From: an uncultured Chlorobiota bacterium
GTDB taxonomy: Bacteria > Bacteroidota > Ignavibacteria > UBA10030 > UBA6906
Reading direction: 5' to 3'
Length of the DNA stretch: 64,000 bases
Assembly (NCBI GenBank): GCA_900696645.1
Contig: CAADGV010000026.1
Location: 1-64,000 of the forward strand
A program made the translations under genes and the position numbers. Under the pieces are notes generated by a model. The model saw only the letters and a list, made by a program, of their open reading frames with translations, ran no database searches and was not told where the DNA came from. Below are positions 3,653-8,909 of this stretch, in pieces (the first letter of the stretch is position 1; each line of letters opens with the position of its first letter).

Positions 3653-4060
3653 CACAATCTCCAATATTCAACAATCAAAATAAGAAGAAATGCGATGGTA
3701 TGGAAGAAGTGAACAGTCAACTGTGCTGAAAGCGTGGCGAATTTCATGTTGAGTTCCTCAATTTTTCCGTTGAACATTCTAACACCATCGTAACTCATTA
3801 TTTCTCAATGGTAGTAGCATGTTTGGCGGCTCTCATTGTTGATGGGATGTTGTACGATTCAACACAATATGTTTTGCAAGAATTTCTCCGGATCGAACCG
3901 GCTTCGGGCAGCCCGTAATCTATTTATTATCAATGGGTTAACAAGTTCACTTTCTTTGTGGTGAGATTGTTTTCTGGCAGGCTTATTGGAAGTGTAGATG
4001 TTGTGAAGTTCAAGAGTCAATCTCACATCAAGAACAGAAAAGTAAAGAAAGGAGCCCAAC
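3653..4060. other. Intergenic region before the GcvH-like/HybAB-like operon
   Basis: About 400 bp between a minus-strand and a plus-strand gene, so it must contain two divergent promoters. It is AT-rich between 3915 and 3960. The one clear structure is the inverted repeat at 3961-4026, listed separately. Long antisense frames across it overlap the downstream gene and look non-coding. Confidence 0.6.
3961..4026. promoter_or_regulatory. Spaced 9-bp inverted repeat, possible operator pair
   Basis: GTGAGATTG at 3961-3969 is matched by its exact reverse complement CAATCTCAC at 4018-4026, with 48 bp between. The second arm lies 35 bp before the first GcvH-like ATG. The arms could be two operator half-sites or the base of a leader hairpin. 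No regulator is encoded nearby. Confidence 0.35.
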
Positions 4061-4720
4061 ATGTCAGCGATACTTGCATTCTTGACTGCTTGCGTGCTCA
4101 TCGTTTGGGGAATGTTTCGCAAAACGAAGAAGAAGGAAGAAATGCAACCTGTGTTCGTCCGGCGGTATGTACATCCGGGCCACACATGGATGAAAATGAC
4201 TGAGGACGGAGATGTGCTTGTCGGTGTTGACGAGTTTGCGCAATCGCTTATCGGCACTATTGATTCGGTGGAACTGCCGCGATTGTTGAGGCGAGTTGAG
4301 CAGGGCAGTGTCGCGTGGTCCGTCAGACATGGTGATCGGGTTGTGCGGATGGTGAGCCCGGTGAGCGGACGCGTAATTGAAAAAAATGAAATGGTGCTGA
4401 ACAATCCGTTGCTCGTCAACTCGTCGCCTTATAATGATGGTTGGTTGCTGCGCATTCGTCCGATGAAACTGCAAACCCAGATCAACAACCTGTTCACTGG
4501 AAAAGCGATGCAGCAATGGCTTGAGCAGGCAAAAGAACAACTCGTGCGGATTTTCTCGACAACCCCGGCCCTCATGTATCAGGACGGCGGCGTGATCGTG
4601 AAAGATCTGGCGGACAAGGTGTCGGATGAAGAATGGAATACGCTTGAGAGGGAGTTTTTCCTGACCGGCGATCAGTCAGACGACAACCTGCATTCCAAGA
4701 AATCAGTTCCTCAATGGTGA
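4061..4720 (+). CDS. Membrane-anchored GcvH-like protein without lipoyl-lysine (1)
   Basis: Residues 1-19 form one hydrophobic helix followed by RKTKKK, which predicts a cytoplasmic C-terminus. Residues 37-124 align with the glycine-cleavage H protein (VHPGHTW, VGVDEFAQSLIGTIDSVELP, SPVSGRVIEKNE, NNPLLVNSSPYNDGWLLRI). Counting back from SPVSG, the lipoylated Lys is replaced by Asp92, so it should not be lipoylated. A C-terminal extension of about 95 residues ends in a QDGG...W..LEREFFLT block shared with the next gene. AAAGAAAGGAG precedes the start. It opens a four-gene operon with a ferredoxin and a HybB-like protein. A glycine-cleavage role is unlikely; a structural or redox-partner role in that complex is my inference. 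Confidence 0.8.
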   Translation: MSAILAFLTACVLIVWGMFRKTKKKEEMQPVFVRRYVHPGHTWMKMTEDGDVLVGVDEFAQSLIGTIDSVELPRLLRRVEQGSVAWSVRHGDRVVRMVSPVSGRVIEKNEMVLNNPLLVNSSPYNDGWLLRIRPMKLQTQINNLFTGKAMQQWLEQAKEQLVRIFSTTPALMYQDGGVIVKDLADKVSDEEWNTLEREFFLTGDQSDDNLHSKKSVPQW

Positions 4721-4749
4721 AACAACGTATCTAACAAGGAGATCCTAAC

Positions 4750-5454
4750 ATGACAGTCTTACTCGTACTCTTAACATTAATTGCATTCCTCGCAGCCGAC
4801 TACATTGTGCAGCGGAGAAAACAAAAGGCGCTCGGCACGGCGGCGTTGCGTTCAACACCCCTTTTTCCCGCATCACATTGGAATTTGTCGGATGATCTGG
4901 TCATTGCTCCCAACCACTTGTGGATGCGGCGCGAGCGAGACAATAGCATCACTGTCGGCATTGACAACTTCCTGTTCGGCTTGACCGGAAAGGTTGAGCG
5001 GATTGAGCTGCCGAAGGAAGGCCAGATTGTCGGGCGCGGAGAAAGGCCGATTGTACTTCGGGAGAAGAACAAGCGTCTCGCCCTTGATATGCCGTTCGAG
5101 GGACAAGTATCGGCAGTCAACCGCGCGGCACTGCAATCGCCGTCAATGGCGTCGCAGAATCCCTATACAGCGGGATGGCTGTTCAAATTGATTCCGGCAG
5201 ACGGGGCCCGTTCGTTGACGTCATTCCTGAGCGGTGAACGTGCCATCGAGTGGCTGAAGAAGCAGAATGACCTCGTGAAAGAATTTCTCGTTGCCCGCGT
5301 GCCGCAACTCGAATTTGCGGCTATGCAGGATGGCGGTGTTCCGGCAGCGGGTGTACTGAAGGAGTTTGACGAACGCGTGTGGGAAGAGTTCGAATCAACA
5401 TTTCTCACCTCTGAAATCGAAACGACGTTGAATGGAGAATACGACAATGCGTAA
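4750..5454 (+). CDS. Membrane-anchored GcvH-like protein without lipoyl-lysine (2)
   Basis: A 234-residue paralog of the preceding gene, 29 nt downstream of it with an AAGGAG site. One N-terminal helix (residues 1-20) is followed by QRRKQK, again predicting a cytoplasmic domain. The H-like domain spans roughly residues 55-140 (NHLWMRRE, VGIDNFLFGLTGKVERIELP, NPYTAGWLFKL). The lipoyl-lysine position aligns with Asn107, flanked by Lys106 and Lys108; the lysines leave a small doubt. The extension ends in MQDGG...VWEEFESTFLT, matching the first copy. The 3' end overlaps the ferredoxin start by 8 nt, so translation is probably coupled. The two proteins may form a heterodimer in the membrane complex (inference). 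Confidence 0.78.
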   Translation: MTVLLVLLTLIAFLAADYIVQRRKQKALGTAALRSTPLFPASHWNLSDDLVIAPNHLWMRRERDNSITVGIDNFLFGLTGKVERIELPKEGQIVGRGERPIVLREKNKRLALDMPFEGQVSAVNRAALQSPSMASQNPYTAGWLFKLIPADGARSLTSFLSGERAIEWLKKQNDLVKEFLVARVPQLEFAAMQDGGVPAAGVLKEFDERVWEEFESTFLTSEIETTLNGEYDNA

Positions 5455-6214
5455 ATCAAAAGGGTTACTCATCGACATATCACGATGCGTGGGCTGCGGG
5501 GAATGCAGCCGGGCCTGCGCGGTTACAAATCATCTTCCCGAAGAAGAAGCGACCGAGCTTTCCGCAACACACTACACGGTTGTGCAGAGTTACAATAACG
5601 ACCAGACATACGTCCGGCGAATGTGTATGCATTGCGAGCAGCCGACATGCGTTTCTGCTTGCCTCGTCGGCGCATTCACGAAAACCGATACCGGTGCGGT
5701 ACTCTATGATGAATCAAAGTGCATCGGCTGCCGGTATTGCATGCAGGCCTGCCCGTTTGAAGTGCCACGCTACGAGTGGACAAGCTTGTCGCCGCGAGTA
5801 CAGAAATGCAAAATGTGCTACGAGCTTGTCGCCGCAGGCGGACAAACAGCTTGCTCCGAGGCATGTCCTGTTGAGGCAACGGTGTTCGGCGATCGTGATG
5901 AATTGATCAAAGAGGCCCGCAGACGTATTGACGAGAATCCGGACGAGTATATCGACTACATCTACGGTTTACATGAGGCGGGTGGAACGGCAGTGATGTT
6001 CATCTCAAATGTTCCGTTCGAGGAACTGGGCTTCCCGATGAATGTTCCGAAGAATCCGATTCCCGAGCTGTCGTGGCGTGTTCTTTCGCAAATTCCGAAG
6101 TACTCGGTTGCGGCAGGCGTGGTGTTGTTCGGCATCAACTGGATCACCAAACGGCGTACTGAAGTTGCCCGGTTTGAAGCGGAAGAGAAACGAAAGCAGG
6201 AATTGCACAACTAG
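5447..6214 (+). CDS. HybA/NrfC/DmsB-type four-cluster ferredoxin with C-terminal membrane helix
   Basis: An electron-transfer subunit with four Cys groups for [4Fe-4S] clusters: CVGCGECSRAC, CMHCEQPTCVSAC, CIGCRYCMQAC and CKMCYELV...CSEAC. The start is placed at 5447 (MRKSKGLLID, 255 residues) because GGAG lies upstream; an ATG at 5432 lacks a site. A hydrophobic segment near residues 215-232 (VAAGVVLFGINWI) is followed by a charged tail, as in HybA. Unlike HybA there is no Tat or other signal peptide, so the clusters probably face the cytoplasm. It would pass electrons between an unseen partner and the quinone pool through the HybB-like protein encoded 31 nt downstream. Confidence 0.88.
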   Translation: MRKSKGLLIDISRCVGCGECSRACAVTNHLPEEEATELSATHYTVVQSYNNDQTYVRRMCMHCEQPTCVSACLVGAFTKTDTGAVLYDESKCIGCRYCMQACPFEVPRYEWTSLSPRVQKCKMCYELVAAGGQTACSEACPVEATVFGDRDELIKEARRRIDENPDEYIDYIYGLHEAGGTAVMFISNVPFEELGFPMNVPKNPIPELSWRVLSQIPKYSVAAGVVLFGINWITKRRTEVARFEAEEKRKQELHN

Positions 6215-6245
6215 AACTTGAACTCTGAAACTAAAGGATACGTAT

Positions 6246-7436
6246 ATGAAATTTCCCGGTCTCTTTAAGGTTACATTCTGGAAAGCCGTTGCGGTAGCGC
6301 TGATGACAGCCGGCGCAATTGCCGCCGTGTGGCGCTTTTCAACCGGCCTTGGTCCTTCCACCAACCTTGTTGACACGTTTCCATGGGGCATCTGGATCGG
6401 CTTCGACATTCTTGTCGGTGTTGGTCTGGCTGCGGGCGGTTTTACAATTGCGGCTACCGTTTATCTTTTTAATATCGAACGGTTTCGTCCCATTTTGCGG
6501 CCAACGATTCTCACGGCGTTTCTTGGCTATCTGCTCGTCATTGCCGGGCTGATGGTTGATCTTGGTCGCCCTTGGGCAATCTGGCATGCACTGATCTACT
6601 GGAATCCTCATTCGGTGATGTTTGAAGTTGCCTGGTGTGTGATGTTGTACACAACCGTGCTGGCGCTGGAATTCAGTCCGGTTGTCTTTGAACGCTTCAA
6701 TCTCGAACGTCCGTTGAAGATCATCAAGGCAATCACGATTCCGTTGGTGGTGTTGGGCGTAATTCTCTCGACGCTCCATCAGTCGTCGCTTGGCTCATTG
6801 TTCCTCATCATCCCGAGCCGGATGCATCCGCTGTGGTATTCCGAGATTATTCCGTTCCTGTTCATTATCTCGTGCGTTGCAGCCGGATTGGCGATGACGA
6901 TTTTCGAGTCATTCCTGTCTTCCCGTGCCTTCGGGCGGGAGATTGAGATGCCGTTGCTTTCCGAGTTGGCACGAGTGATTGTGGTTGTACTGGCCCTCTA
7001 CTTCACTGTTCGCGTACAGGATTTGATTACCCGCGATGCACTGAAGTTTGCATTCGAGATTAACTACCAGAGCATACTCTTTGCGGGCGAGCTTGTCCTC
7101 GGCGTGATTGTTCCGTTCTTCCTGCTGCTGAGCAAGAAGATTCGTGAACACAGAGCCGGATTGTTCTACTCGGCAGTATTGGTAATACTCGGATTTATCG
7201 CTCACCGCATCAACACGGCGATCACGAGCATGGAACAATGGCCGCATCGCATGTACATTCCCTCGTGGCAGGAACTTGCCGTGACAGCCGGTCTGGTCGC
7301 ATTCGGATTCGTGGCCTTCGGTTTTGTTGCGAAATACTTCCATGTGTTCGGGCATGAATCGCATCACGAGCCGAGCACAGCTAAAGAAGAAGCAAAGGAG
7401 GAAGTGGAAGGCTTGGCCGTAGCTTCGACGAAGTAG
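6246..7436 (+). CDS. HybB/NrfD-family quinone-interacting membrane protein
   Basis: A 396-residue integral membrane protein with about ten hydrophobic segments. It resembles the HybB branch of the NrfD/PsrC family (FPWGIWIGFDILVGVGLAAG, AGLMVDLGRPW, MHPLWYSEIIPFLFI, EFGH-type C-terminal helix and an acidic tail). This family binds menaquinone and exchanges electrons with a ferredoxin subunit, here the protein encoded just upstream. No hydrogenase or molybdopterin subunit lies in the operon, so the electron donor or acceptor is unknown. AAAGGA precedes the start, and a strong terminator follows at 7454. Confidence 0.88.
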   Translation: MKFPGLFKVTFWKAVAVALMTAGAIAAVWRFSTGLGPSTNLVDTFPWGIWIGFDILVGVGLAAGGFTIAATVYLFNIERFRPILRPTILTAFLGYLLVIAGLMVDLGRPWAIWHALIYWNPHSVMFEVAWCVMLYTTVLALEFSPVVFERFNLERPLKIIKAITIPLVVLGVILSTLHQSSLGSLFLIIPSRMHPLWYSEIIPFLFIISCVAAGLAMTIFESFLSSRAFGREIEMPLLSELARVIVVVLALYFTVRVQDLITRDALKFAFEINYQSILFAGELVLGVIVPFFLLLSKKIREHRAGLFYSAVLVILGFIAHRINTAITSMEQWPHRMYIPSWQELAVTAGLVAFGFVAFGFVAKYFHVFGHESHHEPSTAKEEAKEEVEGLAVASTK

Positions 7437-7453: not shown

Positions 7454-7487
7454 AAAAAAGGGACGCAGTAATGTGCGTCCCTTTTTT
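7454..7487. terminator. Bidirectional intrinsic terminator
   Basis: AAAAAAGGGACGCA (7454-7467) pairs perfectly with TGCGTCCCTTTTTT (7474-7487) around a 6-nt loop. It gives a GC stem with a T tract on either strand. It lies between the convergent HybB-like gene and glcD. Confidence 0.92.
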
Positions 7488-7508: not shown

Positions 7509-8909
7509 CTAATCCTCAAAAATCTTCCCCGGATTCAAAATATTATTCGGATCAAACGTTCGTTTGACCGCCTTCATCAAATTCAATTCAGCATCCGAGA
7601 GGGCAATAGGGAGGTATGATTTCTGCGAATAGCCGATGCCGTGTTCGCCGGAGATTGTTCCTCCTAACGAAACAGTCAGATGGAAGATTTCACGAATTGC
7701 CGTGTCGAGGTGCTGCTCCCATGCCGCATCATCCATCTTGTCCTTCAAGATGTTGACGTGAACGTTGCCATCGCCGGCATGCCCGTAACAGATGGATGTG
7801 ATGCCGAACTTTCCGCAAATCTCCTTCACGCCTCTGATGAGTTGAGGAAGCGCTGCTCGCGGGACTACCGTATCTTCTTCTTTATACGTAGAGATTTTCT
7901 TGACTGCTTCACCCATACTTCTGCGCAGCGCCCACACATCCTCGATCTTCTGACGATCCTCAGCAAGAAGAACGTCGAGCGCATGATGCTGCTCGACTAC
8001 TGCAGCGATAACCTCGATATCCTTCACAAGTGTTTCCTCGTAGTTGCCGTCAACCTCAACCAGCAGTTGTGCCTCGGCGTTTCCGTTCGGGAATGTTTTG
8101 CCCAACTGCATCTCGGCGGCTCTCACTGCTGCTCGTTCCATGAATTCGAGAGCGGAGGGAGTGATACCGCGTTGAAAAATACTTGCCACAGCGGCGACGG
8201 CATCCTTCAATGAATTGAACGCGACGAGCAGAACCTTCTTTGCTCGCGGAAGAGGAATAAGTCTGAAAATGATCTTCGTGATGATGGCAAGAGTCCCTTC
8301 GCTTCCGACAATGAGTTGGGTAAGATTGTAGCCGGAGACGTTTTTGAGGACACGCCCGCCTGCGTTTATTATCTCGCCGGTCGGAAGGACGGCTTCGACA
8401 CCGAGGACGTAATCCTTTGTTACGCCGTATTTTACAGCCCTCGGCCCCCCTGCGCATTCCGCAAGATTGCCGCCGAGGTGTGAGCTGCCGCGTGATGAAG
8501 GGTCGGGCGGATAGTACAGTCCGCGCTTCTCGCATTCTTCCTGAAAAACTTGCGTGAACACTCCCGGCTCGACCACCGCTTGAAAATTCTTCTCATCAAT
8601 CTCGATGATGCGCTTGAACTTTTCCATTGAGAGAATAATTCCGCCGTGCACGGGCAGCGCTCCGCCGGAAAGTCCGGTGCCGCCGCCGCGGGGCGTTACC
8701 GGAATTGTGTGTGAGTTGGCGAGCCTCATGATTTCTGAAACCTGCTGTGTGGTAGAAGGCCTCAGAATCAATTCCGGAAAGAAAAGCAAATCTTCCGTCT
8801 CATCCTGTCCGTAGATGGTTTTCGAGTCGTTGTCGGAAAGACAATTCTCCCGGCCTACGATTCCCGCGAAGGCCGCGACAAGCTTGTCCGTCAGTTTGTT
8901 GTAGGACAT
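7509..8909 (-). CDS. glcD: FAD-linked oxidase, GlcD family (glycolate or D-lactate dehydrogenase subunit)
   Basis: A 466-residue flavoprotein of the PCMH/GlcD type. The FAD-binding part has PVTPRGGGTGLSGGALP (near residue 80) and DPSSRGSSHLGGNLAECAGG (near 145), plus LKNVSGYNLTQLIVGSEGTL. The C-terminal FAD-oxidase domain carries CYGHAGDGNVHVN and TISGEHGIG, typical of enzymes oxidising 2-hydroxy acids. Length matches GlcD. The usual partners GlcE and GlcF are not adjacent, so the substrate (glycolate, D-lactate or another 2-hydroxy acid) cannot be fixed from sequence. The ribosome site is weak. Confidence 0.85.
   Translation of the reverse strand: MSYNKLTDKLVAAFAGIVGRENCLSDNDSKTIYGQDETEDLLFFPELILRPSTTQQVSEIMRLANSHTIPVTPRGGGTGLSGGALPVHGGIILSMEKFKRIIEIDEKNFQAVVEPGVFTQVFQEECEKRGLYYPPDPSSRGSSHLGGNLAECAGGPRAVKYGVTKDYVLGVEAVLPTGEIINAGGRVLKNVSGYNLTQLIVGSEGTLAIITKIIFRLIPLPRAKKVLLVAFNSLKDAVAAVASIFQRGITPSALEFMERAAVRAAEMQLGKTFPNGNAEAQLLVEVDGNYEETLVKDIEVIAAVVEQHHALDVLLAEDRQKIEDVWALRRSMGEAVKKISTYKEEDTVVPRAALPQLIRGVKEICGKFGITSICYGHAGDGNVHVNILKDKMDDAAWEQHLDTAIREIFHLTVSLGGTISGEHGIGYSQKSYLPIALSDAELNLMKAVKRTFDPNNILNPGKIFED

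Follow-up and report, generated by a model that had tools for sequence, protein, structure and literature searches.

What do two relatives of the glycine cleavage H-protein do beside an electron-transfer pair of the kind found in respiratory complexes? This question is raised by four tightly packed genes at positions 4061-7436, all on the forward strand, of a 64,000-nucleotide stretch of DNA (the window) from an uncultured Chlorobiota bacterium (contig CAADGV010000026.1). They encode two H-like proteins, A and B, a four-cluster Fe-S protein and an NrfD-type membrane protein. A first-pass annotation from the letters alone had called them a tight operon, and the coordinates and strand are borne out by the window sequence. 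Our preferred reading, to which we give a probability of roughly 55%, is that the operon encodes a regulated, quinone-reactive module for electron transfer, similar in kind to HmcBC/HybAB, in which lipoate-less H paralogs tethered to the membrane act as docking or regulatory subunits in the cytoplasm. In what follows G000 is the window's own genome, G001 a sister species and G002 a third member of the same genus; L-numbers are loci from relatives.

H-like proteins and the quinone module

Both H-like proteins match the Pfam family GCV_H above its cut-off (A, E 2e-23, residues 39-155; B, E 3e-14, residues 55-170), and both miss the cut-off of the GcvH equivalog TIGR00527 (76 and 53 bits against 115.85). 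AlphaFold models, with mean predicted local distance difference test (pLDDT) values of 83.5 for A and 83.6 for B and mostly above 90 in the H fold, have an N-terminal helix, the H fold and a helical C-terminal extension with a QDGG motif, in line with the N-terminal anchors and shared extension proposed at first pass. Foldseek comparison of the model of A with solved H-proteins gave a TM-score by target of about 0.9; the comparison covered A, and the H fold of B rests on its own model. An H fold is thus predicted for both proteins.

The genome also encodes a canonical GcvH (G000:C26:69051-69404, TIEAVKAVSD), and its lipoyl lysine aligns with D92 of A and N107 of B, the same replacements that had been read from the letters. 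In the model of A, D92 lies at the tip of the hairpin that bears the lipoyl-lysine in real H-proteins. Of the approximately 160 H-like proteins that we collected, nearly all have lost the canonical lipoylation context, whatever their class; the aligned column holds a lysine in 8 of the 116 proteins of QDGG type, where it lies outside that context, in 0/26 of the cysteine-rich type, in 0/10 receiver fusions and in 1/12 long fusions. A and B share the predicted H fold with GcvH and differ from it in the missing lipoyl lysine, the membrane anchor, the QDGG extension, the sub-cut-off scores and a location away from gcvT and gcvP.

The Fe-S protein has profile matches to Fer4_11, HmcB (1e-76) and HybA (9e-61), and retains the 16 cysteines that four [4Fe-4S] clusters require. 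The last gene product matches NrfD (2.9e-29), HybB (1e-93) and HmcC (9e-91), scores 103 bits for the NrfD family PF03916 against a cut-off of 25.8, and has ten predicted transmembrane (TM) helices. Six of its residues (D54, Y95, D105, S123, Y135 and R321) are conserved in 36 orthologs and match D70, Y110, D120, S138, Y150 and R358 of QrcD, a correspondence drawn from spacing and the family alignment rather than from a structure. Several of the matching QrcD residues are essential (PMC13059093). Tyr102 of the Fe-S protein sits between cluster ligands, like Y113 of QrcC. These features point to a working quinone site in the NrfD subunit. The proposal of a quinone-linked redox complex with docking H folds gains from the quinone-site residues, the complete clusters and the conserved lipoate-less H-like proteins.

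Comparison with the sister genome G001 shows strong purifying selection on each of the four genes, with ratios of non-synonymous to synonymous substitution (dN/dS) of 0.068 for A, 0.073 for B, 0.011 for the Fe-S gene and 0.040 for NrfD. Among 60 related genomes an H-like gene lies within 4 kb of 34 of the 38 close NrfD loci, and two of the four exceptions are at contig ends. Because of this selection and this recurrence, the operon is not a chance arrangement. The ortholog pattern makes an in-frame ATG at 5447, with an 8-nt overlap with gene B, the more likely start of the Fe-S gene.

The nearest described systems each share part of this set. Hmc of sulfate reducers gives the best NCBIfam profile matches and likewise pairs a quinone-reactive NrfD-type subunit with a four-cluster partner; however, the operon scores under the equivalog cut-offs (HmcB 258/420 bits, HmcC 305/550 bits), lacks the multihaem cytochrome HmcA and HmcD-F, with no CxxCH-rich gene in or beside it, has an Fe-S protein without a twin-arginine translocation (Tat) signal, and adds the H-like proteins. 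HybA/HybB of hydrogenase-2 are alike in profile matches and 10-TM topology, but again the curated cut-offs are missed (HybB 315/450, HybA 206/263), the NiFe large and small subunits are absent and the Fe-S protein has no Tat signal. The QrcABCD menaquinone reductase shares, by spacing, the quinone-site and proton-path residues (D54/Y95/D105/S123/Y135) and the Fe-S tyrosine, whereas its cytochrome QrcA and molybdopterin-like QrcB have no counterpart in the operon. The first-pass annotation knew of no described complex with this exact gene set, and we found none in the open-licence literature, although one may be described elsewhere; the texts of PMC12889525 and PMC8076601 make no mention of glycine cleavage or H-proteins.

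Table 1. Positions in the window of the operon genes and associated sites.
Feature	Position	Strand	Description
H-like protein A	4061..4720	+	219 aa; N-terminal helix (residues 2-21, then basic residues), H domain 39-155, QDGG extension
Codon of Asp92, lipoyl-lysine position	4334..4336	+	turn of hairpin 84-90/93-99 in model
H-like protein B	4750..5454	+	234 aa; N-terminal helix, H domain 55-170, C-terminal QDGG extension
Codon of Asn107, lipoyl-lysine position	5068..5070	+	from alignment with canonical GcvH
HybA/HmcB-like Fe-S protein	5432..6214	+	16 Cys, four [4Fe-4S]; hydrophobic C-terminal helix; no Tat/Sec signal
HybB/HmcC/NrfD-like quinone-reactive subunit	6246..7436	+	10 TM
Sigma-54-type -24/-12 site TGGCAGGCTTATTGGA	3975..3990	+	86 nt 5' of first start codon; diverged, TTGG for TTGC
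Probable terminator (GGGACGCAgtaaTGTGCGTCCCTTTTTT)	7460..7487	.	inverted repeat and T-run at operon end, read from sequence

A gene for a GlcD-like (glycolate-oxidase-like) flavin adenine dinucleotide oxidase at 7509-8909 on the reverse strand was considered as a partner and rejected; it is convergent with the operon, and G001, the sister species, is the only relative in which it is a conserved neighbour.

The kinase, sigma-54 regulator and archaemetzincin

Tabulation of neighbours showed that, in most relatives, the genes downstream of the operon encode a kinase with HAMP, HisKA and HATPase domains, a response regulator (RR54) that combines a sigma-54 activator domain with one of Fis type, and an M54 archaemetzincin. 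The gene order in the window's class is H-(H)-FeS-NrfD-(Cys-rich H)-kinase-RR54-M54, in which the third H-like protein, often found 3' of NrfD, has a cysteine-rich N-terminus; an M54 gene lies within 8 kb of 25 of the 38 close NrfD loci. The window's genus (G000, G001 and G002) is the only one in which the cassette has moved away from the operon, its three genes still together. In G000 the intact kinase-RR54-M54 set begins at C26:83274, about 76 kb from the operon on the same contig, and the M54 motif HELGHAFGLVH is preserved. The earlier view of a quinone-linked unit is supported as regards the redox core and incomplete as regards its surroundings: the operon is not self-contained, and its constant partner is a signalling cassette that, at this distance, the first-pass annotation could not see.

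The kinase sensor domain carries a CxxCH motif (AEACxxCH), followed further on by CX4CH in 78 of the 78 kinases that have the CxxCH; the pair of motifs, the second of them invariant, can be seen at L165:5275-6951 (G000:C26:83274-84950) and in relatives. The match of this sensor to Pfam Mcp40H-20_sensor is weak (E 2e-4) and below the cut-off. GSU0582-type domains bind one c-haem (PMC3460858), and a 2026 preprint reports binding of nitric oxide (NO) for this class of c-haem sensor (PMC12889525). Like the sensors of GSU0582/GSU0935 type (Mcp40H-20; sCache_heme, PMC12889525), that of the kinase is periplasmic and has a CxxCH; it differs in the invariant second motif, in the fusion to HAMP-HisKA-HATPase and in the link to a sigma-54 regulator and an archaemetzincin. 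The motifs suggest a two-haem periplasmic sensor distinct from the described single-haem sCache domains, and haem binding by the kinase is probable on this basis. With two c-type haem motifs on the periplasmic side, the kinase would probably respond either to a haem ligand, for example NO, or to a redox state.

The regulator has candidate targets in front of the operons. The best upstream -24/-12 match scores at least 13.5 of 16.9 at 30 of 67 operons, as against 91 of the 960 genes used for comparison (Fisher P 1.3e-12). This background takes in genes internal to operons, a possible source of inflated contrast, and related operons are not independent of one another. Shuffling each region 200 times also supports many of the single sites, and near-perfect ones occur in L235 (TGGCACGCATATTGCT) and L083 (TGGCACGGTGATTGCC). 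In many relatives, sites close to the consensus stand about as far in front of the operon as the one in the window. The site in the window, TGGCAGGCTTATTGGA, is one of the few conserved blocks in upstream DNA that has otherwise diverged between G000, G001 and G002. The genome encodes both RpoN (sigma-54) and the RR54 enhancer-binding regulator.

Two further cluster types bring H-like domains together with NrfD. One has the composition FeS(Tat)-NrfD-13-haem cytochrome-kinase-receiver-H fusions (L176, L184), and multihaem cytochromes stand between NrfD and the kinase in the sister clusters L176, L184, L067 and L097. Receivers fused to H-like domains, some of them anchored at the N-terminus, lie near such kinase and NrfD/13-haem clusters (L073:8904-9713 and 7719-8882; L176:15038-17048), and in some genomes they adjoin a protein of about 1190 residues resembling pyruvate:ferredoxin oxidoreductase. 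The other type is Qrc-like, H-c5-molybdopterin-FeS-NrfD-H; at L064:3730-10219 and L065:6166-12081 a five-haem cytochrome, a molybdopterin protein, an Fe-S protein and NrfD have H-like genes on one or both flanks. Within the window's family, the operons of L036-L045 (for instance L038:433-9464) adjoin alternating glutamate-dehydrogenase-like genes and genes for proteins of about 1000 residues with the N-terminal domain of pyruvate phosphate dikinase.

A scan of genome contigs with protein A alone gave no match, and one with the cysteine-rich H type found matches in metagenome-assembled genomes of Ignavibacteria, Acidobacteria and Desulfobacterota. The order H-FeS-NrfD-kinase-RR54-M54 recurs in Candidatus Solibacter (L105), the operon-cassette arrangement is found in Acidobacteriota at L105, L093 and L088, and rearranged versions of the gene set occur in Desulfobacterota (L097, L226, L229, L235). 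In the phylum to which L105 belongs, 119 genomes were sampled and at most 30 matched the H-like profile at E 1e-26; in that of L092 the figure was at most 48 of 118. These are upper bounds because some of the weaker matches have the size of canonical GcvH. A kinase, RR54, M54 or NrfD gene lies within 8 kb of the QDGG-type H-like gene at 48/48 loci in the window's phylum, 8/11 in Acidobacteriota, 18/21 in Desulfobacterota and 0/3 in Anaeromyxobacter; given the shortness of the contigs and the use of BLAST for labels, these counts are descriptive.

Topology, partners and competing explanations

The H domains of A and B are predicted to be cytoplasmic, because each N-terminus is uncharged and is followed by the helix and then by basic residues; the other H-like classes, seemingly soluble or receiver-fused, agree with this placement. 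By positive-inside analysis of NrfD, its quinone site and the Fe-S arm would face the periplasm, with a pattern equal to that of relatives whose Fe-S partner has a Tat-like leader. Such leaders are present in Desulfobacterota and in the second cluster type of the window's class. In window-type clusters of the same class and of Acidobacteriota the Fe-S protein begins directly before its first cluster motif and has no export signal, and no hidden Tat signal was found upstream of the start, the open reading frame being already the longest from the preceding stop. A flipped orientation of NrfD was rejected as the reason for the missing signal, since the positive-inside pattern is the same in both groups. 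The Fe-S protein is either exported as the passenger of some partner or cytoplasmic, away from the predicted quinone side.

No hydrogenase or molybdopterin gene was found in the operon or its flanks, and none recurs beside the operon in relatives, so that no named catalytic subunit is a constant neighbour. The first-pass statement that such enzymes are absent holds for the operon and its flanks and fails for the genome, which has both NiFe hydrogenases and molybdopterin enzymes elsewhere. G000 has two group-1-like NiFe hydrogenases, one on C9 with its own cytochrome b and one on C15 without a visible membrane partner. The latter (L248:3916-6867) comprises a small subunit with a Tat signal and a maturation protease, with no membrane electron-transfer gene adjoining. 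Candidate molybdopterin partners in G000 were likewise rejected; the matches were a gene of NADH-dehydrogenase type, a cluster of Nar type and one resembling Psr that already has a membrane subunit. By a hand count of strong PF00374 matches, in genomes of which some are incomplete, an exported-type NiFe hydrogenase is missing in 24 of the 37 genomes with a close NrfD locus, G001 included; 8 of the 37 have no NiFe hydrogenase match at all. A NiFe hydrogenase was rejected on this ground as an obligate or general partner.

In the module that we favour, the four-cluster Fe-S protein and the NrfD-type subunit would form the electron-transfer core, the non-catalytic H paralogs would serve at the cytoplasmic face of the membrane as docking or regulatory subunits, and the kinase/regulator pair would switch on transcription of the operon from the putative sigma-54 promoter. 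We infer a complex of all four proteins, a docking role for the H domains, control of the operon promoter by the kinase and regulator, and the direction of electron flow. The receiver-fused H domains beside the second NrfD/13-haem/kinase cluster support a cytoplasmic protein-interaction role. Several observations weigh against this module. In the window's genus the cassette with the kinase lies apart from the operon, and the -12 half of the putative promoter is weakened, reading TTGG in place of TTGC. A periplasmic quinone site and Fe-S arm sit uneasily with an Fe-S protein that lacks an export signal, and the membership of H domains and Fe-S protein in one complex is uncertain because the former are predicted on the side opposite to the quinone site. 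In Desulfobacterota, finally, NrfD is present at 12 of the 21 loci and many H-like genes lie beside a kinase cassette without NrfD or Fe-S genes, so the H-like proteins may belong more to signalling than to electron transfer.

The last point also feeds the main rival, in which the locus is a sensor of the redox state of the quinone pool and not a respiratory enzyme. NrfD and the Fe-S protein would pass electrons between menaquinone and the kinase haem, either straight or by way of a multihaem cytochrome, and coupling of the membrane module to the cytoplasmic kinase and regulator would fall to the H-like domains. The constant association with a kinase whose periplasmic sensor bears two c-haem motifs, the cytochromes between NrfD and kinase, the fusions of H domains to receivers and the want of a constant catalytic subunit all fit this rival; we nevertheless consider it unlikely, as ordinary transcriptional control accounts for the sigma-54 sites 5' of the operon and module and kinase do not share a transcript in the window's genus. 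Alternatively, the operon could supply the membrane module for a Tat-exported enzyme encoded in trans, such as the orphan group-1 NiFe hydrogenase or a molybdopterin enzyme, with the Fe-S protein as passenger and the H-like proteins as assembly or scaffold factors. PsrB and FdnH are signal-less passengers exported with Tat partners, the Fe-S protein resembles them while the topology of Tat-exported relatives is kept, its closest solved match is FdnH (1kqf_B), and the C15 hydrogenase of G000 has no adjoining membrane partner gene. The many genomes without an exported-type hydrogenase, or without any, and the lack of a recurring hydrogenase or molybdopterin gene near the operon make this quite improbable. 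That the H-like proteins are active lipoyl or thiol carriers, feeding electrons to the Fe-S protein through a neighbouring lysine (K106 or K108 of B), is very improbable; lysines do flank N107, and the G002 ortholog of B has a lysine in the aligned column, but the lipoylation context is lost almost throughout the family, with column lysines rare and out of context, and A has aspartate with no conserved lysine nearby.

Meaning for H-fold proteins and NrfD modules

More broadly, and as a tentative proposal, lipoate-less H domains might be a previously unrecognised bacterial signalling or docking domain, occurring in anchored, cysteine-rich soluble and receiver-fused forms, that links NrfD modules to a sigma-54 two-component system whose kinase has a periplasmic di-haem-type sensor, the whole being a quinone-pool redox signalling unit of Ignavibacteria, Acidobacteriota and Desulfobacterota. 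If true, the H fold would have a new role, regulation or docking in place of lipoyl transfer, and NrfD quinone modules would include a new regulated class recurring in three phyla. Naming by best match, as 'glycine cleavage system protein H' or as subunits of hydrogenase or sulfate respiration, misleads metabolic reconstruction. Since a periplasmic sensor kinase with haem motifs is tied here to its probable target operon, the system is directly testable.

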